Of a DNA stretch of 43,248 bases, positions 227 to 43,248 are shown piece after piece. The stretch is taken from contig JAHJRD010000089.1 of NCBI GenBank assembly GCA_018830945.1, positions 1-43,248 of the forward strand. Reading direction: 5' to 3'. Source of the DNA: Nanobdellota archaeon (GTDB lineage: Archaea; Nanobdellota; Nanobdellia; SCGC-AAA011-G17; GW2011-AR17). The translations under genes were made by a program, and so were the position numbers. The notes under the pieces are model-generated. The model did not search any database, was not told the DNA's origin, and saw nothing but the letters and a program-made list of their open reading frames with translations. Within the stretch, counting starts at the first letter, position 1. The number at the start of each line of letters is the position of its first letter.

Positions 227-973
227 TTATCCCTTTATCGCATATACAAGCGTTGCAGTGGCTCTTACATCAAGGTCCTGCGGCATTATGTTAGTATCAA
301 CTGCAGGCGCTGCTGCTTCCATTGACATTACTGCATCCCTATAGATGTATGGCGAATAGCTGCTTCCTCCTTCAACAGAAACAAGCCTTTCAAGCTCAAC
401 ACCAGCTGCTTCAGCCATTGCCTCTGCCCTTGCTTTTGCGACTTCTGCTGCTTTTGCCAGGGCTTCCTTATCCACTTCCTGCTTTTTCTCTGCAGAAAGC
501 ACGAAATTGATGTTGTCAACCCTGTTTGCTCCTGCGCTGACAGCAGTGTCTATGTAAGCTCCCAGGTTGTCGAGCTTTTTTGTGCTTATCTTGATTGTGT
601 TTCTTGCAACATATCCTGTTATGGCATATTCTTCTGTGTCCCTGTCATATCTCTGCTCAGGATAGATATTATATGATGCTGTCTGCATCTCATCAGTGTT
701 AAGCCCTGCATCTCTTAGCGCAGTTGTCACTGCATTTGAGATTCTTGCATTTTCTGCTTTTGTCTCACCAGCTGTTTCTGCCTTTGTTTCTATATTAACA
801 AAAACCTCTGCCTTGTCAGGGGATGTTGTTATTGTTGATTCTCCGCTGACAGTGAGCACATCCCTTGCAGGCTCAAGGCTGAAGCTGTTTTCCGGTTTTA
901 CAGCAGCCATCACAATAACAGCTGCCACGAGTCCTATAATTATTATTCCTGCTAAAAATCCTTTGATTTCCAT
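227..973 (-). CDS. SIMPL-domain (DUF541) membrane-anchored/secreted protein
   Basis: N-terminal TM helix; LTVSGESTITTSPDKAEVFVNIET...A..NA..SNAVTTALRDAGL...I.TASYNIYPE pattern typical of the SIMPL/DUF541 family. Confidence 0.85.
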   Translation of the reverse strand: MEIKGFLAGIIIIGLVAAVIVMAAVKPENSFSLEPARDVLTVSGESTITTSPDKAEVFVNIETKAETAGETKAENARISNAVTTALRDAGLNTDEMQTASYNIYPEQRYDRDTEEYAITGYVARNTIKISTKKLDNLGAYIDTAVSAGANRVDNINFVLSAEKKQEVDKEALAKAAEVAKARAEAMAEAAGVELERLVSVEGGSSYSPYIYRDAVMSMEAAAPAVDTNIMPQDLDVRATATLVYAIKG

Positions 974-1104
974 ACAGGTTAATAGTGCGAGGTTGTTTTT
1001 AAGTATTTTGGATTTGTTCGGTGGGTGCCGAATTAAACTCTAAATACCAATCACAACATTTATATCCCTCTTTGTCCTTAAATATTCTATTAAAAGGGGT
1101 TATT

Positions 1105-1860
1105 ATGAAGAAACCAATCATTGAACTTAAGGATGTATGGAAAATATACAGAATGGGCGAGACAGATGTAGAAGCGCTGAAAGGCATAAGCATTAGCATA
1201 AATGAGGATGAGTTTGCGAGCATTCAGGGGCCTTCTGGCTCAGGAAAAAGCACTCTCATGCATCTTGTTGGCTGCCTTGACCTTCCTACAAAAGGGCATG
1301 TTTTTCTTGACGGGCATGACATATCAAAGCTGACTGAGAGCCAGCTTGCAACCATCAGGGGCAAAAGAATAGGGTTTGTGTTTCAGGCATTTAACCTGAT
1401 TCCAACGCTCACTGCAATGGAGAATGTCATGCTGCCGATGATATTTAATAATGTTTCAAGGTGGAAAAGAGAGAAAACCGCGACTGAATTGCTTATGGAG
1501 ATGGGGCTTAAGGAAAGAATGAATCATAAGCCAAACCAATTGTCCGGGGGGGAACAGCAAAGAGTTGCAATTGCAAGGGCGCTTGCCAATGATCCTGAAG
1601 TGATTCTGGCGGACGAGCCGACAGGCAACCTTGACTCAACAACAGGCAAGCATATCATGGACTTGATAAGGCATCTTTCCAAAGAGCACAAGAAAACAAT
1701 AATCATGGTCACACATGACCCTTACATTGCGAGTTTTGCAAAAAAGAAGGTTGTGATTGTGGACGGCAAGGTTGGGCATGACCATGAATACCTGAAGAAA
1801 ATTTTATGGAAATCAAACCATGAAGATAAGAAGGGAAACCCTAAAGGAGGTAAAAAATGA
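1105..1860 (+). CDS. ABC transporter ATP-binding protein, MacB/LolD family
   Basis: Walker [10 protein letters not shown], signature [15 protein letters not shown], Walker [13 protein letters not shown]; the ORF opens at 1021 but [13 protein letters not shown] at 1105 is the likely start. Confidence 0.93.
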
Positions 1861-3071
1861 AAAAAATAGTTTTAATGGGTATAATAGCGCTTTTGCTGCT
1901 GTCGACAATGGCAGCTGCAAGGCAGACAGTGGTGACAAAAGCAAGCGAGATGAAGATAGATCTTTTAAGGTATGATCCGGCTCCTGTGCAGCCAGGGGAT
2001 ACAACAGACATCTGGTTTGAGATAATAAATTTGAAGGATACTGCCATAAATGATTTTGACGTTACATTTGTTGAGGAATATCCTTTTAAGCTGGTGTCTG
2101 ACAAATCAGTGCATTTCAATAGGCTTGACACTGGTGAGAAAATCCAGTTTAAGTTTACTGTTGAGGTAAACAAGAATGCGCTTGAAAGCAATAATAATGT
2201 GTTTATTCAGTATTATTCAAGGCAGGCAGGCATTACAACAAGCGAGCCATTTGTGGTATCAGTAAAAAGGCTTGGCTCTATTGTTTCAACATCTGTGGGA
2301 ATAAGCCAGGCAGAAAATAATGCTGCAATGATTGCTCCAGGCGCAGTGGCTAATGTTGAAGTTTCAATACAAAATTCAGAGGATTCTGTCATGAAGGATG
2401 TAAGGGTAACATTGGACTTGTCTTCAACTACAATGCCATTTGCAACTGTCGGAATGACTGCAGAGCAAAAGCTGAAGCAAATAAACCCCGGAGCATCTGC
2501 AAGTGTAGCATATAAGCTTGTTGCGCTGCCTGACGCAGCCGCAGGCGTATACAAAGTTCCAATCACAATAAGCTATTATGATGCAGTTGGAACACTTCAT
2601 GAAACAGAAGATCTTGTCGGCATAATGGTTGGGGCAGAGCCAAAGCTTAAGGTTGTGCTTGACAGCACTGAGCTTACAAAAACTACAAAGAACGGTAATG
2701 TGGTGCTGAAGATAATTAATTACGGCACAACTGATGTAAAGTTTGCAATGCTTACTGTAATGCCTGGAGAGAATTATGGGCTGCTTTCAACTGATGAGCA
2801 TTATATAGGCAATATTGACTCTGACGACTATGAAACAGTTGAATTCAGGCTTAATGCAAACGCAGACAGCCTAACAATTCCTGTGCACCTTGAATACATG
2901 GATGCCAATAATGCGCAGTACTCTGAAAGCCGCAATGTTGAGATAATGCTTTACAGCCCTGCTGACTTAGGGCTAAAGCAGAGCAAGGCATGGCTTTACA
3001 TTGTGGTGCTGATTGTCATTGGCGGCGCATACTTTGGCTACAGGAAATATAAAAGCAAGAAGCAGAAATGA
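1857..3071 (+). CDS. Secreted CARDB/COG1361-like protein with C-terminal TM, ABC operon partner
   Basis: Signal peptide, Ig-like repeats (PVQPGDTTDIWFEIINLKDTAINDF), C-terminal TM; ATGA overlap with both neighbours. Confidence 0.75.
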   Translation: MKKIVLMGIIALLLLSTMAAARQTVVTKASEMKIDLLRYDPAPVQPGDTTDIWFEIINLKDTAINDFDVTFVEEYPFKLVSDKSVHFNRLDTGEKIQFKFTVEVNKNALESNNNVFIQYYSRQAGITTSEPFVVSVKRLGSIVSTSVGISQAENNAAMIAPGAVANVEVSIQNSEDSVMKDVRVTLDLSSTTMPFATVGMTAEQKLKQINPGASASVAYKLVALPDAAAGVYKVPITISYYDAVGTLHETEDLVGIMVGAEPKLKVVLDSTELTKTTKNGNVVLKIINYGTTDVKFAMLTVMPGENYGLLSTDEHYIGNIDSDDYETVEFRLNANADSLTIPVHLEYMDANNAQYSESRNVEIMLYSPADLGLKQSKAWLYIVVLIVIGGAYFGYRKYKSKKQK

Positions 3072-4279
3072 TAGCTGATTATTTCAGGCTTGCCTTTAAG
3101 GGTATTGCCAGGCGAAGAGTGAGAAGCTGGCTTACCCTTATTGGAATTTTTATAGGGATTACAGCAGTTGTATCCCTTATTACATTAAGCCAGGGCATGC
3201 AGGATGCGATTACAGAGCAGTTTTCTAAATTAGGCTCAAACAGGGTGATGATTACTCCTGGAGGAAAAAGCTTTGGGCCTACTGCAGGCGCTGTCATGAC
3301 AGCCAAGTTTGATGACGATGACGCGGATACTGTTCGGCGTGTAAAAGGGGTGGATGATGCTCTTGGGCCGTTGATACGGACAGCAAGCGTTGAATTCAGG
3401 GGGGAAACAAAGGCCATAATGACCTTTGCCTATCCAACAAGCTCCAATGCCATAAGGATTCTGGAAAGAAATGGGGTTATTGATATTGAGGATGGAAGAA
3501 TGTTCCGGCCTTCTGACAGATATGTTGCAATTCTTGGCTATACAAATGCATACGATGATTTTGACAAGGAAGTCAAGGAAGGGAATACTATTAAAATTGA
3601 GGATTATGAGTTTAAGGTAATCGGAATAAGGGGAAAATCCGGCTCGTTCCAGGACATTGCAATGGGCATACCTCTTGATGTGGGGAGGGAGATATTTGAT
3701 GAAAAAGAAGAAGTATCGTCTATCTTTGCGATAATCAAGCCAGGATATGATACCGGCGCTGTTGCAGAAGACATTAAAAAAGCATTAAGAAAGCACAGAA
3801 ATGTTGAAGAAGGCGAGGAAGATTTTACTGTTAATTCCCCGCAGATGCTTCTTGAGTCTGTCACAATGATAACTGATGTTGTGAAAGCTGTTTTAATTGG
3901 AATTGCCGCTGTTTCTATTTTGGTTGGTGGCATAGGGATAATGAACACAATGTACACTTCTGTTGCTGAAAGAACAAAAGAGATTGGAATAATGAAGGCA
4001 ACAGGCGCGAGAAACTCCTCAATCATGATGCTGTTTCTTGTGGAATCAGGCATGCTTGGGCTTATTGGCGGAGTGTTCGGGCTTGCGGCTGGATATGGCA
4101 TAAGCATGGCTGCTGGAAAGATTGCAATGGATGCTGCAGGCATTGAAGTGATTGTGGCTGTTACGCCTGCAATGGTTATTGGCGCCTTAGCATTCTCTTT
4201 TGTGCTGGGAGCGCTTTCAGGGGTTTTTCCTGCGAGAAAAGCATCAAAATTACAGCCAGTGGAGGCGTTGAGGCGATGA
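3068..4279 (+). CDS. ABC transporter permease, MacB/FtsX-like
   Basis: RSWLTLIGIFIGITAVVSLITLSQGM; GGIGIMNTMYTSVAERTKEIGIMKATGA; C-terminal PARKASKLQPVEALRR. Confidence 0.92.
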   Translation: MIADYFRLAFKGIARRRVRSWLTLIGIFIGITAVVSLITLSQGMQDAITEQFSKLGSNRVMITPGGKSFGPTAGAVMTAKFDDDDADTVRRVKGVDDALGPLIRTASVEFRGETKAIMTFAYPTSSNAIRILERNGVIDIEDGRMFRPSDRYVAILGYTNAYDDFDKEVKEGNTIKIEDYEFKVIGIRGKSGSFQDIAMGIPLDVGREIFDEKEEVSSIFAIIKPGYDTGAVAEDIKKALRKHRNVEEGEEDFTVNSPQMLLESVTMITDVVKAVLIGIAAVSILVGGIGIMNTMYTSVAERTKEIGIMKATGARNSSIMMLFLVESGMLGLIGGVFGLAAGYGISMAAGKIAMDAAGIEVIVAVTPAMVIGALAFSFVLGALSGVFPARKASKLQPVEALRR

Positions 4280-5487
4280 TAAAAGATTTTGCAATGCTCA
4301 GCATTTCAACATTCAAGGCAAGGAAAATGAGGTCTTTGCTTACAATGATGGGAATTTTCATAGGGGTTGCATTGCTTGTTACGCTTGTTTCACTTGGAAG
4401 GGGATTGGAAGATTCTATAACGCAGCAGTTTGAAAGCCTTGGCACTGACAAGATATATGTCTTTCCAGGCACAAATATGTTTTCAGCGGCAATCTCAGAC
4501 CAGACATTTTCTGAATCAGAGTTTAATGCGCTTGAAAAAATAAAAGGCGTAAAGCTTGCGGCAGGCATGGTGTTTAGAATTGGAAGAATTGAATATAATG
4601 ATGAAGTAAAATACGTAAGTATTGTAGGCATCCCTCTTGATGAGAAAAGAGAAGTTTTCAAAAGCGTGCATAACATGAAGGTTGAGCAGGGAAGGGACTT
4701 GAAGAATGGCGATAAATACAAGGCGCTTGCCGGCATTGATCTTACTCTTAAGGATATTGTATTTTCAAAAGGCCTGCGGCCAGGAGACAAGGTTATTGTT
4801 GAAGGGCAGGATTTTGATGTTGCAGGGGCTCTTGCCAGAATAGGAAACCCTGACGATGACAGCATGCTGCTGATCCCTCTTGGCACTGCAAGAGAATTGT
4901 TTAACCAGGAGGACAGCTATGGCTATATTTTACTGCAGGCGCAGGAAGGGGCCTTGCCTAAAGCTATTGCAGAAAGTGCTGAGAAAAAGCTGCGCTCAAT
5001 AAGAAACCTGGATGAAGGCGATGAGAATTTCAGCATACAGACAACAGATGACTTAATGGAAACATTTGCTGACATACTGGCAATTGTGCAGGCTGTTTTA
5101 TTAGGTTTGGCTGCGATTTCTTTGATTGTTGGGGGGATTGGCATAATGAACACAATGTACACTGCAATTATTGAAAGAACAAGGCAGATTGGCGTGATGA
5201 AGGCGATTGGCGCGACTAACTGGCATATTGCTTTAATCTTTCAGATTGAGTCTGGATTGCTTGGCTTGGCAGGAGGCATTGTTGGTGTCTTGATTGGAAT
5301 GGGCATTGGAAAGCTGATAGAGTTTGCTGCGCATTCTGCCAATCTTACGTTCTTTAATGTGTCATTTCCTCTTTGGCTGATTGTTGGAGCATTGTCTTTT
5401 TCAACTATCTTGGGTATTGTATCTGGTGTATTGCCTTCAATGCAGGCTGCGAAGATGAAGCCGATAGATGCCCTGCGCTACGAATAG
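4276..5487 (+). CDS. ABC transporter permease, MacB/FtsX-like (paralog of the previous gene)
   Basis: MRSLLTMMGIFIGVALLVTLVSLGRGL; GGIGIMNTMYTAIIERTRQIGVMKAIGA; C-terminal MKPIDALRYE. Confidence 0.92.
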   Translation: MIKDFAMLSISTFKARKMRSLLTMMGIFIGVALLVTLVSLGRGLEDSITQQFESLGTDKIYVFPGTNMFSAAISDQTFSESEFNALEKIKGVKLAAGMVFRIGRIEYNDEVKYVSIVGIPLDEKREVFKSVHNMKVEQGRDLKNGDKYKALAGIDLTLKDIVFSKGLRPGDKVIVEGQDFDVAGALARIGNPDDDSMLLIPLGTARELFNQEDSYGYILLQAQEGALPKAIAESAEKKLRSIRNLDEGDENFSIQTTDDLMETFADILAIVQAVLLGLAAISLIVGGIGIMNTMYTAIIERTRQIGVMKAIGATNWHIALIFQIESGLLGLAGGIVGVLIGMGIGKLIEFAAHSANLTFFNVSFPLWLIVGALSFSTILGIVSGVLPSMQAAKMKPIDALRYE

Positions 5488-15558: not shown

Positions 15559-15894
15559 ATGATTGAAAGCTATAAATTTGGGGAAATTGTAATTGACGGC
15601 AAAAGCTATCACCATGATGTTATACTGGCTTTAAACAAGGTTATTACAAACTGGGAGCGCGAAGAGGGGCATTTGTTAAATGCAAATGACTTGAAAAACG
15701 CTTTAAAAGAGAAGCCTAAAATTCTTATTATTGGTACAGGCTATGAAGGATGCATGAAGCTTGACTCTTCTGTTGAATTTATCTGTAACAGGCATGGAAT
15801 AAAGCTTATTGCGCAGAAGACAAAAGATGCTGTTAACACATTCAATTCAATGCTTAAGGAAGGGGTTGTTGCCGCTCTTCATTTGGCGTGCTGA
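15559..15894 (+). CDS. Mth938 (DUF498)-domain protein
   Basis: SYKFGEIVIDGKSYHHDVIL...ILIIGTGYEG...LDSSVEFICNRHGIKLIAQKTKDAVNTFN. Confidence 0.85.
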   Translation: MIESYKFGEIVIDGKSYHHDVILALNKVITNWEREEGHLLNANDLKNALKEKPKILIIGTGYEGCMKLDSSVEFICNRHGIKLIAQKTKDAVNTFNSMLKEGVVAALHLAC

Positions 15895-16999
15895 ACCTTT
15901 CAAGATATTCTATTGCCTGTTCTTCATCGTCAGGGGTGTCTTTTAAAATTCTTACAAGCTCCCTCATGTCAGGGTGCGCTTCATAAACACTGTACGCGCG
16001 CTCAAAAAACCATGTGTAGGGCAAATCCCTCATGAGCGTGGCATTGCTTATGGACTTAATCTTTCTGTCTGCATCAGCCATTGCGTTCCATTCCCTGGTT
16101 GCCCTTATCATAAACTCGCGCTTTCTTTCTTCCATCTCTTCTTCAGGAATATCCATTGCATATAATGCTGACAGCTCTTCATAGTATCCTACTGTGAAGT
16201 CTGCTCTCCATTTCCACTTGTTAAGAACCTCAACTGTTTGTTCATAAGGCTTTGAATTAGTCCCGAATTCTATTTCTGAAAAATCAACAGTGCCTGCAAA
16301 CCCAACAAGGGAAGCCAGGGACTCCTCAATTCTTGGGATATAGATATGCCCCCAAACTTGCATCCTGTTAAAGTGCCAGTCCTCGTGTATAGGGGTCATT
16401 ATCTGCCTTGCAATAGGGTCTTTCATAAACTCGTCAGTAATGCTGCAGCCCGGGCGGCTGCTTGAAGTTGAGCTGAAATTAACAACAACCCTTCTGAAAA
16501 CATCAAATCCCTCTGCCCTGTAATATGCTTCTTCATCCTCAAAATTGTCCCTGCGCGAATAAAGAATTGTTGTTTCTGTTACATCATTCCTGTATTCTAT
16601 TGGCAAGGCAATATATCTGGACCTTTCTGGTTCAATGGTTATTTGGAATTTTGGGATGATATACAGCATGTAAGAGACAGAATCGTTTTCAGCAAGCTCA
16701 TCAGCAGCGCCTGGCCTATATTCCCTGTAGTTGGCTGTCTCCTGGAAACCAAGTTCCTTCCGGCCGTAAAGCTTAACCCGGCTGATAAGGTCTATTGTTT
16801 CATAGAATCTTCTTGTATGATAGGAATCTGCGGGGCTTGGGAAAACATCTTCATGGCAGGCGTAGAAATCAGTTCCATGCGCGCTTATTGTAAATACATC
16901 CTCGCAGGTCAATGTTGGAAGCGTGACAGCCTCGGCATTTGTATCTGCTGCGCTTATTATGGCTGCAGGAATCAATGCAAGCAGGGATTTGCACCTCAT
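15854..16999 (-). CDS. Putative secreted zincin/aminopeptidase-like protein with intact HExxH
   Basis: Signal peptide; PIHEDWHFNRM at 16373-16387 followed by RIEESLASLVGFAG. Confidence 0.65.
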   Translation of the reverse strand: MRCKSLLALIPAAIISAADTNAEAVTLPTLTCEDVFTISAHGTDFYACHEDVFPSPADSYHTRRFYETIDLISRVKLYGRKELGFQETANYREYRPGAADELAENDSVSYMLYIIPKFQITIEPERSRYIALPIEYRNDVTETTILYSRRDNFEDEEAYYRAEGFDVFRRVVVNFSSTSSSRPGCSITDEFMKDPIARQIMTPIHEDWHFNRMQVWGHIYIPRIEESLASLVGFAGTVDFSEIEFGTNSKPYEQTVEVLNKWKWRADFTVGYYEELSALYAMDIPEEEMEERKREFMIRATREWNAMADADRKIKSISNATLMRDLPYTWFFERAYSVYEAHPDMRELVRILKDTPDDEEQAIEYLERFSTPNEERQQPLP

Positions 17000-17132: not shown

Positions 17133-20100
17133 ATGAAGAGGCGGCTTTTTTGGGTTTTTGGGGTTGTTTTGATAGCCTTGTTTCTGCCGCTGATGTTTGC
17201 AGTTGAAGATGCATACGAGCCGGATAATGTATGGGGCAATGCAACTACAATAGTGACAAACGGCAGCAGGCAAACACATACCTTTGATGTTTCAGGGGAT
17301 GTAGATTATGTAAATTTCTCAGCTGTTGCAGGAGTCCAGTATGTGATTGAAACATACAGGCAAGGTGCAGTCGATACGCAAATTACCCTTTACAGCACAG
17401 ACGGCACTACGAGGCTGGATTCAAATGATGATATAGAAGATGGGTACCAGCAAAATTCAAGGATAGTTCTTGATGCAACTGCAGACGGCACTTATTATTT
17501 TAATATAAGCGACTATAATAGTTCCCAGACCGGCACTTATGAAGTAAGCGTTCTTGAGCAAGGCAGGATGATTCCTTCTCTTGTAAGCCATACGGCAAAT
17601 GCAAATGTCACAAAAAACAAGGTGTTTGAATTTACAACATCAGTGCAGTGTTTGTCTGCTGACTGCTATAATGTTACAGCAACTTTAGATCCTGAGCCAT
17701 TTGCTGTTATTCCTTCCCTTAATGAAAGGGCGCAAAAAATAAAGCCAAAAATCCAAAAGCCTGGAAAAGCAGAAACCGAAGTTTATTCAATGCTTGAAGA
17801 GCAGGAAAAGGTTAGCGTTATTGTTATTATGAAGCAGAAAGATGTTAAAGCGAAAGGAAAAAAGGCGGCTTTAAGCTATTCTGCTTTTGGTGAATTATTA
17901 AACAAGGGTTTTGAGAAGAAGCATGAATATGTTACATTTAACGGCTTTTCCGGGAAAGTTACTAAAGAAGCTTTGGCTGAGCTTGAGAATAATCCGGATG
18001 TTGAGGCGATTTATTATGACAGGGAAGTACACATAATGGCTGAACAGCCTAATATGCTGCAGATAAATGCGGACGATGCTTGGGCAATGCAGGTTGATGG
18101 CGTTAATATTACCGGTGCTGATGAAACAATCTGTATTATAGACACAGGCATTAATTATTCGCATGCTGATTTTGGGAGCTGCGTAAAAACTTCAGATAAT
18201 ATTAATGATGGATGGTGCCCTAAGGTGATCGGCGGGTATACTTCTTTGAATCAAGGTGCAACAGAAAATTCAAATCCTTATGATGACCATAATTATTTAG
18301 GAAGTCAAGGGCATGGCACCCATGTTGCAGGAATTGCAGCTTCACAAAGTGTTGGTTATCAAGGAGTTGCGCCCAATGCAAAAATTGTTGCGATTAAGGC
18401 GTTAGACAATACGGGGTCAGGATATACTTCTGATATAGATGCTGGCATCGATTGGTGCATTGCAAATGCTGTCAGGTTAAACATCACTTCAATTTCAATG
18501 TCTCTAGGGGGACGTTCTAATTATTCTTATTATTGCCCGAACGATGCGCTGAGAGTTCCTATAGATACAGCAATATTGGCGGGCATTCCTGTTTTTGTGG
18601 CTTCTGGAAATATAGGCTATTCAGATAAAATATCAACGCCCGCTTGCATTGAAAACGCAACTTCTGTAGGCGCTGTAAATGGTTTTGATATTATTACATA
18701 TAATAGGGCAAGAATATTGGATCTATTGGCGCCAGGGGTTTCAATAACTGCAACAGATTATGATGGCACTCATGTATCCATGTCAGGAACCTCCATGTCC
18801 ACACCTCACGCTGCGGCTTTAGCTTTATTGTTAAAGCAGTATGCAAAATTAAAATTCTCAAGAAACTTAACAGCTGAACAATTAAAGCATGCAATAACAG
18901 CAAACGGAAAGATGGTTTTTGACTCTTCGAGCAATTTGTCTTTCCCGAGGATAGATGCCCTGGCTTCAATAGACGGAAAGGGAATAATACCCACAACTGT
19001 GGGGGCAAAGCCGTTTTATTCCTTAACCCCCAATCCGCATAATGCTTCTTGTCTCTCACATATTGTACAAGGTGAAACGTGCAGCACTACATGGCAGGTG
19101 AATGTAACAGGTGATGCACATGATACTTTTGCTTTTTTTGTTATATATACAACTGATTACAAAAGAAATGATTCAGCGAAAGTGAACCTGACAATCAGCC
19201 TTGCGCTGCCTGTGTCTTTGAACAGCCCCTCAAACTCCCTGAATTCAAACAACCAGTCTCAAATCTTTAACTGCTCTGTCGCAAATGTAAATTCCCTTAC
19301 AAATATATCCCTTTACGGAAATTTCAATGGCACATGGCTTTTGAACTCAACTTCAAACATAAGCGGAACAGACAACAGCTCTGCATGGCAAATCAACATT
19401 CCTGACGGCAGCTTTGAATGGAACTGCTATGCCTGCAATGATGAAAGGTGTGACTTTGCATCTGCAAACTATTCTTTAGCAATTGACACAGCCATGCCCC
19501 AATTCACAAACCTAAGCTATCCTGCTGTGATTGAATTAGGGGATGAGCAGAGCATCAGCATAAACCTCACTGATGCGCACTTGACTTCAGGCAATATCTC
19601 ATATTCAGGCGCTAATTATACAATGCTTAATTCAACCTCAAATTTCAGCCATTCTTATACGCATGAGCAGAACGGAACCTTGAATTTCACAATATATGCT
19701 TTTGACGCAGCAGGAAACATGAATTCAACAGCAGGAAGCTTTTATGCAAATGACACAAGCAACGGCACAAGGATAAAGTCAGTGTATTTGGCATCTTCAA
19801 CATTAGCATTAGGAAGCAACCAGACAATCACTGCATACATCTACGATAAGTGGCAGCCTTTGAATGTTTATTTTGGCCATAACGGCACTAACATTACAAT
19901 GCCTAACAATACATTAACTAATTTCAGCTATTCATGGGTTGTTTCGCAGTGCGGGACTGTAACCTACAAGATATATGCAAACAATTCACAAGGAATAGCA
20001 AATACCACAACAGGAACATTCACTTCAAATAACTGCTGCGGCAACGGAGTATGCGACGGCAGCGATACATGCTCTTCATGCTCAGCTGACTGCGGCGCTT

Positions 20101-20807
20101 GTTCCACAACAACCTCTTCAGGAGGCGGAGGGGGCGGCGGAGGCGGCGGAAGCATATCAGCAGCCGCAAACACTGCAAGCATTGTTTTAAGCCGCATTTC
20201 TCCTTCAAATCCTGCAAAAGTATCCATTTCCAATTCTGAAATCCCTGTCAGCTCTATCAGGATAGATGTTGCAGCTGAAATAGCGCAGGCAAGGGTGCAG
20301 GTAACTGCATTGAAAGAGCAGCCTTCTTCTGTTAAAAGTCCAGAAAAGCCTGTATACAGGTATCTTGACATATCAACAGGGATAGATGCAAAAGACATTG
20401 TCAGTTCAGAGATTGTGTTTACAGCTGCAAGGGAATGGCTTTTGGAGAATGGCATATTGAAAGATAATGTTGTTCTTTTGCGCTTTAATGAAGGGGAATG
20501 GGTTGAAATGCCTACTTCTTACTTAATGTCAAAGGATAACCTGCATTATTATTCTGCTTCTGTTGGCGGATTTTCAGTGTTTGCAATATCTGTTAAAGAG
20601 AAGAAGATAGTTCCTGAGAAGAAGAAGGAAGAGCCCAAAGAGGAAGCGCCTGAAGTGTCTGGAATGGCTGTTATTGAAGAGCCTGAAGTGAAGATAGAGC
20701 CTTTCTACATAAAGCCTGCATTGCTTGTTTTGGGCATATTGTTCGGGCTTGCAATGGGCGCTGCGCTCTTCATGCACAGAAGGCACAGGAGAAGTTTGAA
20801 GAAATAG
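17133..20807 (+). CDS. Secreted subtilisin-like (S8) protease with PPC domain, Cys-rich CGNGVC motif and PGF-pre-PGF-like C-terminus
   Basis: IDTGINYSHADF (Asp), GHGTHVAGIAA (His), MSGTSMSTPHAAA (Ser); CCGNGVCDGSDTCSSCSADCGAC; Gly10 linker; WLLENGILKDNVVLLRFNEGEW...GGFSVFAIS. Confidence 0.93.
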   Translation: MKRRLFWVFGVVLIALFLPLMFAVEDAYEPDNVWGNATTIVTNGSRQTHTFDVSGDVDYVNFSAVAGVQYVIETYRQGAVDTQITLYSTDGTTRLDSNDDIEDGYQQNSRIVLDATADGTYYFNISDYNSSQTGTYEVSVLEQGRMIPSLVSHTANANVTKNKVFEFTTSVQCLSADCYNVTATLDPEPFAVIPSLNERAQKIKPKIQKPGKAETEVYSMLEEQEKVSVIVIMKQKDVKAKGKKAALSYSAFGELLNKGFEKKHEYVTFNGFSGKVTKEALAELENNPDVEAIYYDREVHIMAEQPNMLQINADDAWAMQVDGVNITGADETICIIDTGINYSHADFGSCVKTSDNINDGWCPKVIGGYTSLNQGATENSNPYDDHNYLGSQGHGTHVAGIAASQSVGYQGVAPNAKIVAIKALDNTGSGYTSDIDAGIDWCIANAVRLNITSISMSLGGRSNYSYYCPNDALRVPIDTAILAGIPVFVASGNIGYSDKISTPACIENATSVGAVNGFDIITYNRARILDLLAPGVSITATDYDGTHVSMSGTSMSTPHAAALALLLKQYAKLKFSRNLTAEQLKHAITANGKMVFDSSSNLSFPRIDALASIDGKGIIPTTVGAKPFYSLTPNPHNASCLSHIVQGETCSTTWQVNVTGDAHDTFAFFVIYTTDYKRNDSAKVNLTISLALPVSLNSPSNSLNSNNQSQIFNCSVANVNSLTNISLYGNFNGTWLLNSTSNISGTDNSSAWQINIPDGSFEWNCYACNDERCDFASANYSLAIDTAMPQFTNLSYPAVIELGDEQSISINLTDAHLTSGNISYSGANYTMLNSTSNFSHSYTHEQNGTLNFTIYAFDAAGNMNSTAGSFYANDTSNGTRIKSVYLASSTLALGSNQTITAYIYDKWQPLNVYFGHNGTNITMPNNTLTNFSYSWVVSQCGTVTYKIYANNSQGIANTTTGTFTSNNCCGNGVCDGSDTCSSCSADCGACSTTTSSGGGGGGGGGGSISAAANTASIVLSRISPSNPAKVSISNSEIPVSSIRIDVAAEIAQARVQVTALKEQPSSVKSPEKPVYRYLDISTGIDAKDIVSSEIVFTAAREWLLENGILKDNVVLLRFNEGEWVEMPTSYLMSKDNLHYYSASVGGFSVFAISVKEKKIVPEKKKEEPKEEAPEVSGMAVIEEPEVKIEPFYIKPALLVLGILFGLAMGAALFMHRRHRRSLKK

Positions 20808-38609: not shown

Positions 38610-41600
38610 TTACCAGTTCCCGCCGAACCAGAAGTTCCATTTTTCAGGGTCAATCATGCTGATATTGAACCTTAATCTCCCAAACATTGAATTGAAGTTT
38701 AACAGAAGCCCTGCATCATAATGGGTTTCGTACGGCAATCTCCAATTCCTTTCATCATTGTTTTCAATATGGGGATTGTAATACCATGCAGAGCCGACAT
38801 CTGCATAAACTCCAAGTTCTATTCCAGGGAATATAAAGAATCCGCTGTACTCAGTCAGGGGCTTGCTGAAAATTGCTCCAGCAACCTCAAACAATGGCGA
38901 CCTTACTTCAAGGCTTGCAAGGAAGAAGTTGTTTCCTGATTCTGATGCAAAATCAACCCCTCTTAATGTCTGGTTGCCGCCAAGCATGTATAATGTAGGA
39001 ACCATGCCATAGCTGAATCCGCCTTCTGCTCTTGCAGCGATTGTCACAAGCTCGTGAGGCGTGTAATATCCGCGTATGCCTCCGTTAACATCAACGTTGC
39101 TCATTTCATTGTGGGAAACACTGTATCCCTGCTCAAGATTGAGATAAGCCCTAAAGCCGCCGATTGGGCCTTCCATGCTCCAGAATGTATCATCATAGCC
39201 AAGCCCGAATCCCAGCTTGAGCACGTGGTTGTCTCCGGCAAAGTCAAGATTATTGTTTTGCACTCTTTGGAATTCATATCCTCCTCTTAAGTCAAAGTGC
39301 AGGCTTCTTGTCAGGTCAAACAAATGAGTATAAGTTGCGCCTGTGTAAATGTCATTGGCATAGTGGTTGATGTATGCCTGGGCTGAGAAGTTATTTTCCA
39401 GATCCATATAGCCTATTATTCCCCTGTTCCATTTCTCAAAGTCGCCGATAAAGTCAATGAGCATCATCTTTTCCCACAGGTTGTCTCTTGTGAGTATTGA
39501 AAGCTGCAAAAATCCCGCGCTTCCATTGTATGCGCCCATTGCGGCAAGGTGCATGCTGTCAAACGGAAGGCTTGAAACCGGCTCAACATCCCTTGCTTCA
39601 GGCGCGCCTGAAATCCTTACATCACGAACCCTTTCCATGTAAGGAAGTATAATCCTTTGCCCTCTTGTCCTGAAATTAATTCCATCTTCCCCATATGAAG
39701 GAAGGAACTCATTTGCCTCTGTTGCCGCAATGCTTGTCACCCTGCCTGTCCTCAAGTCCTTTTCAAAAACATCAAAATTATTGCCGTTGAACCGGGCATA
39801 TGCCAGCTTCCCTGCATCTGCGTCAAAGCCCAAAGCGCTGTTGATTTCCCTCTGCGCAGCCTGCTCCAGGTCAATGATTCTTACATCGCTTCCATTGCTT
39901 ATAATAAGATTATTTCCATCAATAACAGCATCCCCTACTTCCAACAATTCATTAAAGTCACCGTCATACATATAGGCGGAAACTCCATACATTGTCTTTT
40001 CCCTTACCATCATATTGCCGTTGGCGCCTTTTGAATAGAACCTTCTTCCGTCTTCAAGCACTCTGTGCAGTGAAAGAGCATTATTTCTTATCTCGCCTGC
40101 ATAAAGCTCCTCATACTCTGCATCATCTCCTGTCCTTAAAACCTCAAGCATAACCCTGCCTCTGCTTATATCAAGAGAAGAAACTGTATCATCATCCTCA
40201 TCAATGTGTACTGGCACAAAAAAGCTCCGGGTTTCATTATTATGTTCATACACAATTTTTAATCCTTCATCAATGTTGAATGAGGCGACAATGCCATTTT
40301 CAGATGTAAATCCCCATGATGCAAGCTGGTCCTCATCAAAAGCACCGTGCTCTGTTGTTGTGTTTGTTGCAGCATCATAAACACAGACAGAAGCCATGTC
40401 TTCAACACGCCTGCTGTTGCATACAGCCGCAACCATTGTCCCGTCTTCAGACAGCTTTGTGTTTTCAGGCTCAATGCCCCTGTCTGAGAAAGGCTTTCTT
40501 ACAATATTGCTGTCAACTTCAAGGAAGAGCTGCCTTCCAATGTCAAAATACATATGCGTATCATTCACAAACGCCATTTCCTTTAATTGGTGAGTTGATT
40601 CAAGATCAGGTATGCGCCTTGCTTCTGTTGTGTTTGTAAAAGAATCATAGATATAGAACTGGAACGGGAAATCCGCTCTTTCTTCCTGGTCCCTTAATGA
40701 CATCCTGTTGTTTACTGCGAATACCATATACCTGCCGTCATTTGACATTGCCCTGCCAAACACAGTATGGCTTTCCTCAAAGCCCCTCACAAATCTTTCT
40801 GTTTCAGAGTCAATTGCAAGCCTTTGCTGGATTCTTTCTTCCTGTCTTGCACGCCTTGGCGCAACAAGGTTTTCAAGGTTCCCGTCTTTCATTCTGAGGA
40901 AAGTGAGATCTTGAGGCACAGGATTATTATTAACAACAGGCATGGCTTCCATGTAGATTGCGCCGAAATCAGCGCCAATCCTGCTTACCTGGTATGTTGT
41001 GCCGTTGGATGAAACAAACAAGCCGTCATTGTTTGCAGTGAATGCATTGTGCCTTGTTTCCTGCCTTTCTCCTGCTTCTTCATCTGCTGAAAGCTCCCTT
41101 CTTAACAATTGCTCGGCAGAAGGCGCCTGCATCCTGTGCATTGTCCTTGCAAAGCCTTTCAATGAATTGAATAATATCTCATCATCTGAAAGCCACTGCG
41201 GTGAAATAGCTGCTATGTTCGCATCATCCACTTTGTAATGCGTCTTTTTATCCATCTCATACATGTAAAGGCTTATGTTCAGGTTTTCATCGCCGACAAA
41301 TGCTATCCTGCTGCCGTCAGGCGAGAATCTTGGCGAGCCAGCATTAAAGCTTCCGTCTGTTATTGCCCGCATCTGCCCTGTCTCTAATTCCATTAAATAG
41401 AGATTGTCAACATACCAGTCATCTTTCCTGTCTTCTTTTGATATTACAAGCTTCCCTTCACTATAGTCAATCCCATTGTACCCTGACTGCCCTTCTGTCA
41501 GCTGCTCAAGCTCTTCTGTTGCTATATTAAATATGAATACCTGCGCAAATCCGTTCTTATGCCCTATGAATGCAATCCTTTCCTCATCAACAATTCTCGG

Positions 41601-43055
41601 GCTTTTTATTACAAGTATGTCCTCAAGCTTGAATTCTTTTTCACTTCCTAAATCCAAATCCCTGTCTTCACTGTCATATGTGTAAGGAACAACCCTTAAT
41701 ACATCAGAATCATTGTTTCTTATTGAATAAACAATCTTTGAGCCGTCAATGTCAGCGCCGCCCCTGAAGTTGTGCAATGAGTCATTGGTGTCGCGCCTGT
41801 CGCACACGATTGTCGCGCCAGAAATCCTGCTTAATTCATCAACATGCTTTGCATACAGGCAGTTCTGCCCAACATCCCTTGCTCCTGCAACAAAAAAGCC
41901 GCCATGGGCTGCCAATACAGCGCCGCCTTCCATCTTTACTGCCCTGCTTACAATGTCAGGGTTTCCTCTCAAATGGCTGTAAAGCTCTTCTGCTTTATTG
42001 TCAAGCCTGTTTTGCAGCTCATCAATGCTTATACCTAATGATTTTTTTACATTGTCTGGGAATTCATCGCCCATGTTCTGCCTTAATCTTATCAATGCCT
42101 GCTCCCCGAATTCCTCTGCAATAAACTTTGAAATGAACTGCCCTTCCTTGTACATGAGCCATGTGCCATTAGCCATCCACATCCTGTCCAATGGCAGGAA
42201 AAAGCCGTTTTGGTAAGCGTTTCTTATGAATGTGTCTGCCTCAGCATCCCAGTGGTTTGGCGTTGATACATACTCTGCAGTTCCTTCAATGAGCCAGAGC
42301 GGAATATTGAAATTTTCAACATCCTGTGTTGCGCTCACGTTTGTCATTTTCTGGATGTCATGCCAGTGAGTATACTCGTGCTTCCATACGTGCTTCCAGT
42401 CTGAGAAGTCTCCTTCGAACAATGATAATACCCTGTACTTCATGTCTTCGCTTACAAATGTGATTCCGCCTAATCCTTCAGGCACATAAGGGAGGAGTCT
42501 TGTCTGCTCAAAATCCCTTCTTGAATGGTATAAGTAAGACCATGTTTTTAAGTCAGCTGCGTTGTTGCCAAACAAATTGCTTAAGTCATCATAGCATAAC
42601 TCTGAATAATCAATAAAATCCTCAAGCATTGTTTCATTATATGTATATACTCTAAAATGCTGCGTCTCGTAATTGCTCCAGTCAAGCTCTTCATAATTAG
42701 GGCGGTGATGGCCAAAGTTCCTTGCGCCTAAGTTCTGCACTAATCTTGACCTGCCTGAGCTTCTCCAGAATAGGTTGAACATCTGCTCCATGAGCTGCTC
42801 GCCTGACGCCAATACTTCCTCCCTGTTGAAGAATTCCGAGTCAGCAATTCTTAATGCATATGTGTCTTCAAGGTCTTCAGTTTCTTTTAATTCATCAATT
42901 GTGACTGGCGTTGTGTCAATCTGCGCTGCTGTTGGCTGTATTATAAGGTCTTCAATGGATTGTGCTTGAGCGTCTGCTATTGACGGAATTGCTATTGAAG
43001 ATGCTAGTGCAAGCCCCCCTAAAACATTCTTTAAACCTGCTTTTTTATGCCTCAT
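38610..43055 (-). CDS. Secreted gluzincin-like protease, TolB-like beta-propeller and Omp85/BamA-like beta-barrel fusion
   Basis: Signal peptide; WKHEYTHWHDIQKM and WLIEGTAEYVS; TolB-like blades (GSPRFSPDGSRIAFVGD); C-terminal LGGNQTLRGVDFASESGNNFFLASLEVRSPL and GVYADVGSAWYY. Confidence 0.8.
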   Translation of the reverse strand: MRHKKAGLKNVLGGLALASSIAIPSIADAQAQSIEDLIIQPTAAQIDTTPVTIDELKETEDLEDTYALRIADSEFFNREEVLASGEQLMEQMFNLFWRSSGRSRLVQNLGARNFGHHRPNYEELDWSNYETQHFRVYTYNETMLEDFIDYSELCYDDLSNLFGNNAADLKTWSYLYHSRRDFEQTRLLPYVPEGLGGITFVSEDMKYRVLSLFEGDFSDWKHVWKHEYTHWHDIQKMTNVSATQDVENFNIPLWLIEGTAEYVSTPNHWDAEADTFIRNAYQNGFFLPLDRMWMANGTWLMYKEGQFISKFIAEEFGEQALIRLRQNMGDEFPDNVKKSLGISIDELQNRLDNKAEELYSHLRGNPDIVSRAVKMEGGAVLAAHGGFFVAGARDVGQNCLYAKHVDELSRISGATIVCDRRDTNDSLHNFRGGADIDGSKIVYSIRNNDSDVLRVVPYTYDSEDRDLDLGSEKEFKLEDILVIKSPRIVDEERIAFIGHKNGFAQVFIFNIATEELEQLTEGQSGYNGIDYSEGKLVISKEDRKDDWYVDNLYLMELETGQMRAITDGSFNAGSPRFSPDGSRIAFVGDENLNISLYMYEMDKKTHYKVDDANIAAISPQWLSDDEILFNSLKGFARTMHRMQAPSAEQLLRRELSADEEAGERQETRHNAFTANNDGLFVSSNGTTYQVSRIGADFGAIYMEAMPVVNNNPVPQDLTFLRMKDGNLENLVAPRRARQEERIQQRLAIDSETERFVRGFEESHTVFGRAMSNDGRYMVFAVNNRMSLRDQEERADFPFQFYIYDSFTNTTEARRIPDLESTHQLKEMAFVNDTHMYFDIGRQLFLEVDSNIVRKPFSDRGIEPENTKLSEDGTMVAAVCNSRRVEDMASVCVYDAATNTTTEHGAFDEDQLASWGFTSENGIVASFNIDEGLKIVYEHNNETRSFFVPVHIDEDDDTVSSLDISRGRVMLEVLRTGDDAEYEELYAGEIRNNALSLHRVLEDGRRFYSKGANGNMMVREKTMYGVSAYMYDGDFNELLEVGDAVIDGNNLIISNGSDVRIIDLEQAAQREINSALGFDADAGKLAYARFNGNNFDVFEKDLRTGRVTSIAATEANEFLPSYGEDGINFRTRGQRIILPYMERVRDVRISGAPEARDVEPVSSLPFDSMHLAAMGAYNGSAGFLQLSILTRDNLWEKMMLIDFIGDFEKWNRGIIGYMDLENNFSAQAYINHYANDIYTGATYTHLFDLTRSLHFDLRGGYEFQRVQNNNLDFAGDNHVLKLGFGLGYDDTFWSMEGPIGGFRAYLNLEQGYSVSHNEMSNVDVNGGIRGYYTPHELVTIAARAEGGFSYGMVPTLYMLGGNQTLRGVDFASESGNNFFLASLEVRSPLFEVAGAIFSKPLTEYSGFFIFPGIELGVYADVGSAWYYNPHIENNDERNWRLPYETHYDAGLLLNFNSMFGRLRFNISMIDPEKWNFWFGGNW

Positions 43056-43248
43056 TTAATTTCGAGCATAGTAATTGGAATGAGGTTTATAAAGCTTTAG
43101 GTGGAAAGTATGTATTAAGCTTCAGAGGAGAGCCTTAAGTTGCTCATAGGGATTGGCCTTTCTTAAGTTCCATGTTTGAAACAGGCTCAACATTATCTCG
43201 GTTGTTTTCTGTCCTTGTTCTGTTCGTAAACAACCTATAATTTTTTCC

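Follow-up and report, generated by a model that had tools for sequence, protein, structure and literature searches.

The window analysed here is the entire contig C81 (JAHJRD010000089.1; 43,248 nucleotides) of the Nanobdellota archaeon genome G000, which is 1.5 Mb in size, 95% complete and 0.27% contaminated. A gene on its minus strand (38610..43055) encodes a protein, P0001, in which a signal peptide is followed by a predicted zinc peptidase domain, a β-propeller region resembling TolB and, at the C-terminus, a barrel of some 322 residues that is assigned here to the Omp85 family. The reading frame starts with ATG and encodes 1481 amino acids with no internal stop. A related fusion, P0002, is encoded by a distant DPANN lineage. 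To our knowledge, the Omp85 barrel family is regarded as limited to bacteria, mitochondria and chloroplasts, and the presence of such fusions in two distant DPANN lineages would break the rule that archaea have no Omp85. We hold with high confidence that the domain identities of P0001 and its archaeal origin are both correct. A sequence-only reading of this DNA had singled out the gene by several motifs, all of which could be placed in the protein: HEYTH (residues 226-230), WLIEGTAEY (254-262), LGGNQTLRG (1358-1366), EVRSPL (1383-1388) and YADVGSAWY (1417-1425). As it had also claimed, the last residue is aromatic (W1481).

A predicted Omp85-type barrel at the C-terminus of P0001

The barrel domain occupies residues 1160-1481 (38613..39578, minus strand), and is shorter than the final stretch of about 370 residues to which the sequence-only reading had given an Omp85-like identity; the identity itself held. 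It was assigned by a profile-profile comparison with hhalign, in which the three-sequence barrel family of P0001 was aligned with a profile built from 13 BamA/TamA barrels that plasmid-borne genes encode. The alignment scored 76.6 (E=4e-10) and covers 271 columns in collinear order, beginning in strand 1 (GAYNGSAGFLQLSILTRDNLWEK opposite YGSETGLMGTLSLKDSNWRGK) and extending to the last strands. In the controls, 59 column shuffles scored 25 or less, the reversed profile scored 14.4, and 19 other proteins of the window did not exceed 17.6. Barrels of other families (OmpF, LptD, BtuB, FadL, a TonB receptor and a porin) reached no more than 20 when they were the targets of the barrel profile, and no more than 21.5 when they were themselves used to query the Omp85 profile. 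Since non-Omp85 barrels score this low as targets, the match is specific to Omp85 and not general to barrels.

Against a single full-length BamA, the P0001 barrel profile scored just 24, indicating that the depth of the profile matters. In a single-sequence Pfam search P0001 did not match PF01103 (Omp85) even at E<=10, and no NCBIfam family matched its barrel. The barrel profile found no match among PDB sequences, and no relative of the barrel was detected in the viral contigs searched. The best tblastn match of the barrel in plasmids was a Fusobacterium BamA, with an E value of 4 that is not significant alone. Thus, the Omp85 hidden Markov model match anticipated by the sequence-only reading was absent at the level of a single-sequence Pfam search with P0001, but was obtained in the profile-profile comparison and with P0002, which exceeds the Pfam cut-off.

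In BamA, residues R661, E717 and D740 lock loop 6 (L6) inside the barrel (PMC3871556, PMC12505904). Their counterparts in P0001 are R1365, in the L6 motif GGNQTLRG (38958..38981, minus strand), its partner E1383 (38907..38909, minus strand), and D1419, in the DvGsaW strand (38799..38801, minus strand). The arginine and the glutamate are invariant in the 18 aligned barrels, the aspartate is kept in 16 of them, and all three residues are retained in each of the four archaeal barrels. The P0001 barrel also contains 13 candidate amphipathic strands, compared with 7.4+/-1.9 in shuffled sequences, none of which reached 13 (0/300). E. coli BamA behaved alike in this test, and the propeller and peptidase regions of P0001 had no such excess. 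However, the excess was not significant for the barrel of P0002, whose 10 candidates were reached by 63 of the 300 shuffles, and we therefore treat this measure as supportive only.

Unlike canonical Omp85 proteins, P0001 has no POTRA domain detectable by a Pfam scan; POTRA-less subfamilies of Omp85 are recognised (PMC4104836). Taken together, the hhalign match with its controls and the conservation of the three L6-locking residues bear out the Omp85 claim, and, as judged by sequence comparison, the C-terminal domain of P0001 is an Omp85-family barrel without POTRA.

A putative zinc peptidase and a TolB-like propeller precede the barrel

P0001 begins with a Sec-type signal peptide (KK...LGGLALASSIAIPSIADA; 42969..43055, minus strand), recognised by inspection and kept in the copy of a congener, L009; its predicted cleavage site is A29/Q30. 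A Peptidase MA/gluzincin-like domain at residues ~126-360 (41976..42680, minus strand) was delineated from a weak Pfam match, tblastn and the alignment of homologs. The Pfam match, to Peptidase_MA_2 (PF13485), reached 20.1 bits (E=6e-4) and was under the cut-off of 32.4, and residues 103-520 matched a plasmid-borne Salinibacter peptidase-PD40 protein with E=7e-17 in tblastn. In the HEYTH zinc motif (42366..42380, minus strand), H226, E227 and H230 are identical in all four aligned homologs, which also share the W..EG.AE pattern of WLIEGTAEY (42270..42296, minus strand), where E257 would be expected to supply the third zinc ligand. P0001, P0002 and the Salinibacter protein have H226/E227/H230/E257 in common, that is, the HExxH motif and downstream glutamate of gluzincins. 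These results agree with the metalloprotease claim of the sequence-only reading, and the predicted peptidase MA-type (gluzincin) zinc site of P0001 is intact.

The propeller region extends over residues ~380-1150 (39606..41918, minus strand). PD40 and DPPIV_N exceed their Pfam cut-offs in it, and TIGR02800 (TolB) of NCBIfam matches with 68 bits, compared with the 343 required of a full-length TolB. In an AlphaFold model of residues 95-660, only the blades at 434-609 (41229..41756, minus strand) were reliable, with block means of the predicted local distance difference test (pLDDT) of mostly 55-92; the best solved-structure matches of these blades in Foldseek were TolB (E=8.6e-9). The TolB-type propeller that had been claimed for the protein was thus recovered, whereas its FSPDG repeats reduced to one copy (577-581), the remaining repeats being degenerate. 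The region is probably made of two propellers, the second half being too divergent to call. Judged by these matches, P0001 is not a TolB of the Tol-Pal system, with which it has the propeller fold alone in common.

The gene resides in an archaeal context

The contig carries an archaeal-type Bud32 that scores above its curated cut-off. In codon usage, the P0001 gene ranks with those nearest to the average of the window (distance 0.594), and its G+C content (GC) equals that of the window. The gene is preceded by an archaeal B recognition element (BRE)/TATA promoter (CACCTAAAGCTTTATAAA; 43086..43103, minus strand), in which TATA lies 31-38 nucleotides before the ATG, and which is identical in L009 although the sequence beyond the gene and promoter does not align. 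The element AAANNTTTATAA occurs in four copies in the window, where 0.41 would be expected, and none of 100 shuffles reached four. Upstream of the gene, the contig ends with a remnant of an IS66 transposase, its C-terminal 41 amino acids (43125..43247, minus strand; NF033517, E=1.9e-6), whose nearest plasmid relatives are haloarchaeal IS66. As the Bud32-bearing contig is on one side of the gene and an archaeal-type IS66 on the other, both flanks are archaeal. The possibility raised by the sequence-only reading, that the contig is bacterial or chimeric, is contradicted by all of these features as far as it can be tested.

An identical copy of the IS66 remnant terminates contig C55 of G000, and 3' ends of IS66 transposases were observed at contig ends of this genome in the window (43125-43247, minus strand), C55, C14 and C31. 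With its multiple copies, IS66 is probably a cause of breaks in the G000 assembly, and it may have mobilised the barrel gene.

Two sources of error were examined and rejected. Contamination of G000 was dismissed as the source of P0001, and an Omp85 fragment in another genome (L068:7000-8919, G390:C10) was not counted, as it is likely an assembly chimera: the frame of an archaeal RNase Z is cut, GC changes from ~0.29 to 0.49, a bacterial-looking Omp85 C-terminus follows, and an N gap lies nearby. The end of this G390 contig would be better removed from the genome. The join illustrates how an artefact presents itself in these data, and neither P0001 nor P0002 resembles it.

Homologs in other DPANN genomes

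Homologs of P0001 were found both near and far within DPANN. The congener copy L009 ('Nanoarchaeota archaeon Yes70-37', JASEIA010000093.1) is full-length and 78% identical to P0001. In a second genus of the family ('archaeon nzgw38', JAHFJF010000037.1), the last 171 amino acids of the barrel are present at a contig end, adjoining archaeal Cdc48 and ribonucleotide reductase. The open reading frame of the reductase (L010:4453-8022) appears to hold an intein.

A Pfam Omp85 search of 378 genomes of the class gave one match above the cut-off, in G458. The matching protein, P0002 (L052:3431-6538, G458:C39), has 1035 amino acids and scored 25.3 bits against the 24-bit cut-off. Its parts are arranged as in P0001: a signal peptide, HELAH...LPDWFNEGTAEW (EGTAEW), propeller-like repeats and an Omp85 barrel. 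The peptidase domains of the two proteins are 28% identical (E=3e-8), and their barrels are far apart. The contig of P0002 carries Orc1/Cdc6, the DP1 and DP2 subunits of PolD, and Lhr, and the composition of the P0002 gene fits it. An open reading frame for 273 amino acids follows P0002 on the same strand; its start resembles a signal peptide, and it could be placed in no clear family.

By predicted domain content, the peptidase-propeller-Omp85 architecture is present in two distant DPANN families, either through shared descent of a patchy gene or through two acquisitions. It was encountered in 3 of the 103 genomes of P0001's order and in 1 of the 180 of G458's order. The LysRS locus is present in the congeners that lack the gene, with different neighbours. 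A pattern scan of genome contigs returned just the two archaeal relatives. One more barrel match, a weak one in another family of the class (L011, G167:C48:28353-28595; E=8.7e-5), is interrupted by three stops; it is a decayed copy or a chance match, and was not used.

Proposed function and alternatives

The explanation that we favour, by a small degree, is that P0001 is a secreted, membrane-anchored zinc metalloprotease of a Nanoarchaeota-type DPANN archaeon. How it would act, as an anchored envelope protease, is a proposal that in our judgement stands an even chance of being right. The gene, or its barrel, would have been acquired horizontally from a diderm bacterium, a bacterial source being one that the sequence-only reading had also considered, and would then have become fully adapted. 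P0001 would be exported from the cell by Sec, its barrel would insert in an outer bilayer with the RG motif of L6 locked to E1383 and D1419 inside, and the peptidase and propeller would be kept on the inner face of this bilayer. We take such a periplasmic-side position as the default orientation because the enzyme domain of PlpD, the best studied enzyme-Omp85 fusion, remains periplasmic (PMC11116518). The role of the propeller would be to hold substrates or partner proteins. The peptidase would trim proteins in the envelope space between the cell membrane and the outer layer, or where the cell touches a partner cell. The bilayer that receives the barrel might be the archaeon's own outer membrane, vesicles, or the outer membrane of a partner. 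More tentatively, and with distinctly less conviction, we suggest that some DPANN archaea have a functional bacterial-type barrel in an outer membrane or similar layer of their own, as part or all of a diderm-like envelope, and that this goes back to one or more gene transfers of an Omp85 enzyme fusion.

Several observations weigh against an anchored envelope protease. We know of no outer membrane in the lineage of the P0001 host. The G000 genome contains no BamA-like insertase, no POTRA and no second Omp85, and the lack of the first two leaves the folding and insertion of the barrel unexplained. The gene is missing from two congeners, which are 99% and 95% complete, and half of the sampled genus is without it; such a rare and patchy occurrence is more in keeping with an accessory function than with a core one in the envelope. 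Neither a donor nor any bacterial homolog of the fusion appeared in the collections searched, among which the contig scan used patterns so narrow that absence there is not evidence. Finally, AlphaFold modelling of the barrel with three sequences gave a pLDDT of 28, the alignment being too shallow.

The accessory nature of the gene and the lack of an own BamA or POTRA would also suit a barrel that is made by the archaeon but inserted in the outer membrane of a partner, a diderm bacterium, with the protease and propeller serving as an attachment or attack factor. DPANN have been described as mostly ectosymbionts, but the hosts of cultivated DPANN given there are archaeal (PMC11291902). As no host is known for this archaeon, and as Omp85 barrels normally require the β-barrel assembly machinery (BAM) from the periplasmic side, we consider this alternative unlikely. 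Slightly less probable again is that the inherited Omp85 domain is no longer embedded in a membrane, and that P0001 is a secreted protease, either soluble or associated with the S-layer, whose barrel-like domain is vestigial. A monoderm host, the missing insertase and the low-confidence barrel model would be in line with that, whereas the amphipathic strand pattern maintained in P0001 (if not significantly in P0002) and the L6 arginine, acidic partners and terminal aromatic residue kept in three related genomes and P0002 are as expected if selection maintains a folded barrel.

We think it very improbable that P0001 is an assembly or translocation factor for other archaeal barrel proteins, a BamA/BamB-like fusion with the peptidase as a quality-control module. 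Heinz and Lithgow proposed that bacterial WD40-Omp85 proteins act in a BamA-BamB-like manner (PMC4104836), and the RG motif required by BamA is present in P0001; however, POTRA is missing, half of the sampled genus does without the gene, and a second Omp85 went undetected in the genome, where the search did not extend to client barrels of other families. That the gene stems from bacterial contamination or a chimeric assembly is hardly credible: the gene lies 193 bp from the contig end, the genome G002 is 7% contaminated and G390 seems to contain such a chimera, but three metagenome-assembled genomes of one archaeal family and P0002 have the fusion or barrel, with an archaeal promoter, codon usage, an archaeal insertion sequence on the other side, and Cdc48 and PolD linkage, while the G390 join breaks an archaeal frame with a jump in GC.

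P0001 and P0002 provide a concrete handle on the cell-surface makeup of DPANN archaea and their contact with partner cells. They raise the question of whether, in the absence of the BAM machine, an archaeal membrane can take up a β-barrel in working form, and P0001 makes it testable whether some archaea have an outer membrane of the bacterial type or make use of another cell's.

Other genes of the window

A second large peptidase on the contig is a subtilase of 1224 amino acids with an I9 propeptide (17133-20807, plus strand), and a second possible metallopeptidase is a 381-amino-acid protein (15854-16999, minus strand) that matches PF10023 (putative aminopeptidase) just above the cut-off. A row of genes at 1021-5487 (plus strand) encodes an ABC ATPase, an NPCBM_assoc protein and two MacB/LolCE-like permeases, and is adjoined by the gene of a SIMPL protein (227-973, minus strand).

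Comparison with known systems

The survey of Heinz and Lithgow in 2014 did not detect Omp85 in archaea (PMC4104836). The same survey describes the bacterial WD40-Omp85 proteins, in which, as in P0001, a TolB-like propeller is fused N-terminally to a POTRA-less Omp85 barrel. By architecture, and judged from the description given there, P0001 is apparently closest to this subfamily. P0001 differs in the HExxH peptidase ahead of the propeller, which is not described there (PMC4104836), and P0001 and P0002 differ in having DPANN archaea as hosts.

With BamA/TamA (PF01103), P0001 shares the collinear barrel, the L6 GG..(L/V)RG motif, the counterparts of E717 and D740, and the terminal aromatic strand. 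However, it lacks POTRA, its single sequence is below Pfam detection, its barrel is shorter (322 vs 387 amino acids), and no BAM partners were found. With no POTRA, and as an accessory gene product absent from congeners, P0001 is not a BamA. The patatin-Omp85 proteins PlpD and FplA resemble P0001 in the N-terminal fusion of an enzyme to an Omp85 barrel, but their enzyme is a lipase and they have a POTRA domain, whereas P0001 has a predicted zinc protease and lacks POTRA. The 'basic secretory protein-like' protein of Salinibacter ruber (NZ_CP030365.1, WP_118831798.1) likewise has a peptidase domain followed by a PD40 propeller, but it is 634 amino acids long and has no barrel. The 'Metallo' Omp85 of Heinz and Lithgow also combines an Omp85 barrel with an N-terminal domain, termed a metalloprotease there; that domain, however, is PF00149, of the calcineurin-like phosphoesterase family, and not an HExxH peptidase.

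Diderm archaea are known in other lineages (PMC8871954). One publication mentions a DPANN protein, from Altiarchaeales, that may be related to the bacterial barrel PopA (PMC12228718), so that P0001 may not be the sole bacterial-type barrel in DPANN. Within the part of the literature covered, outside which a later report of an archaeal Omp85 may exist, what appears to be new here is the HExxH peptidase at the front of a WD40-Omp85-type fusion, and the archaeal host of such a fusion.

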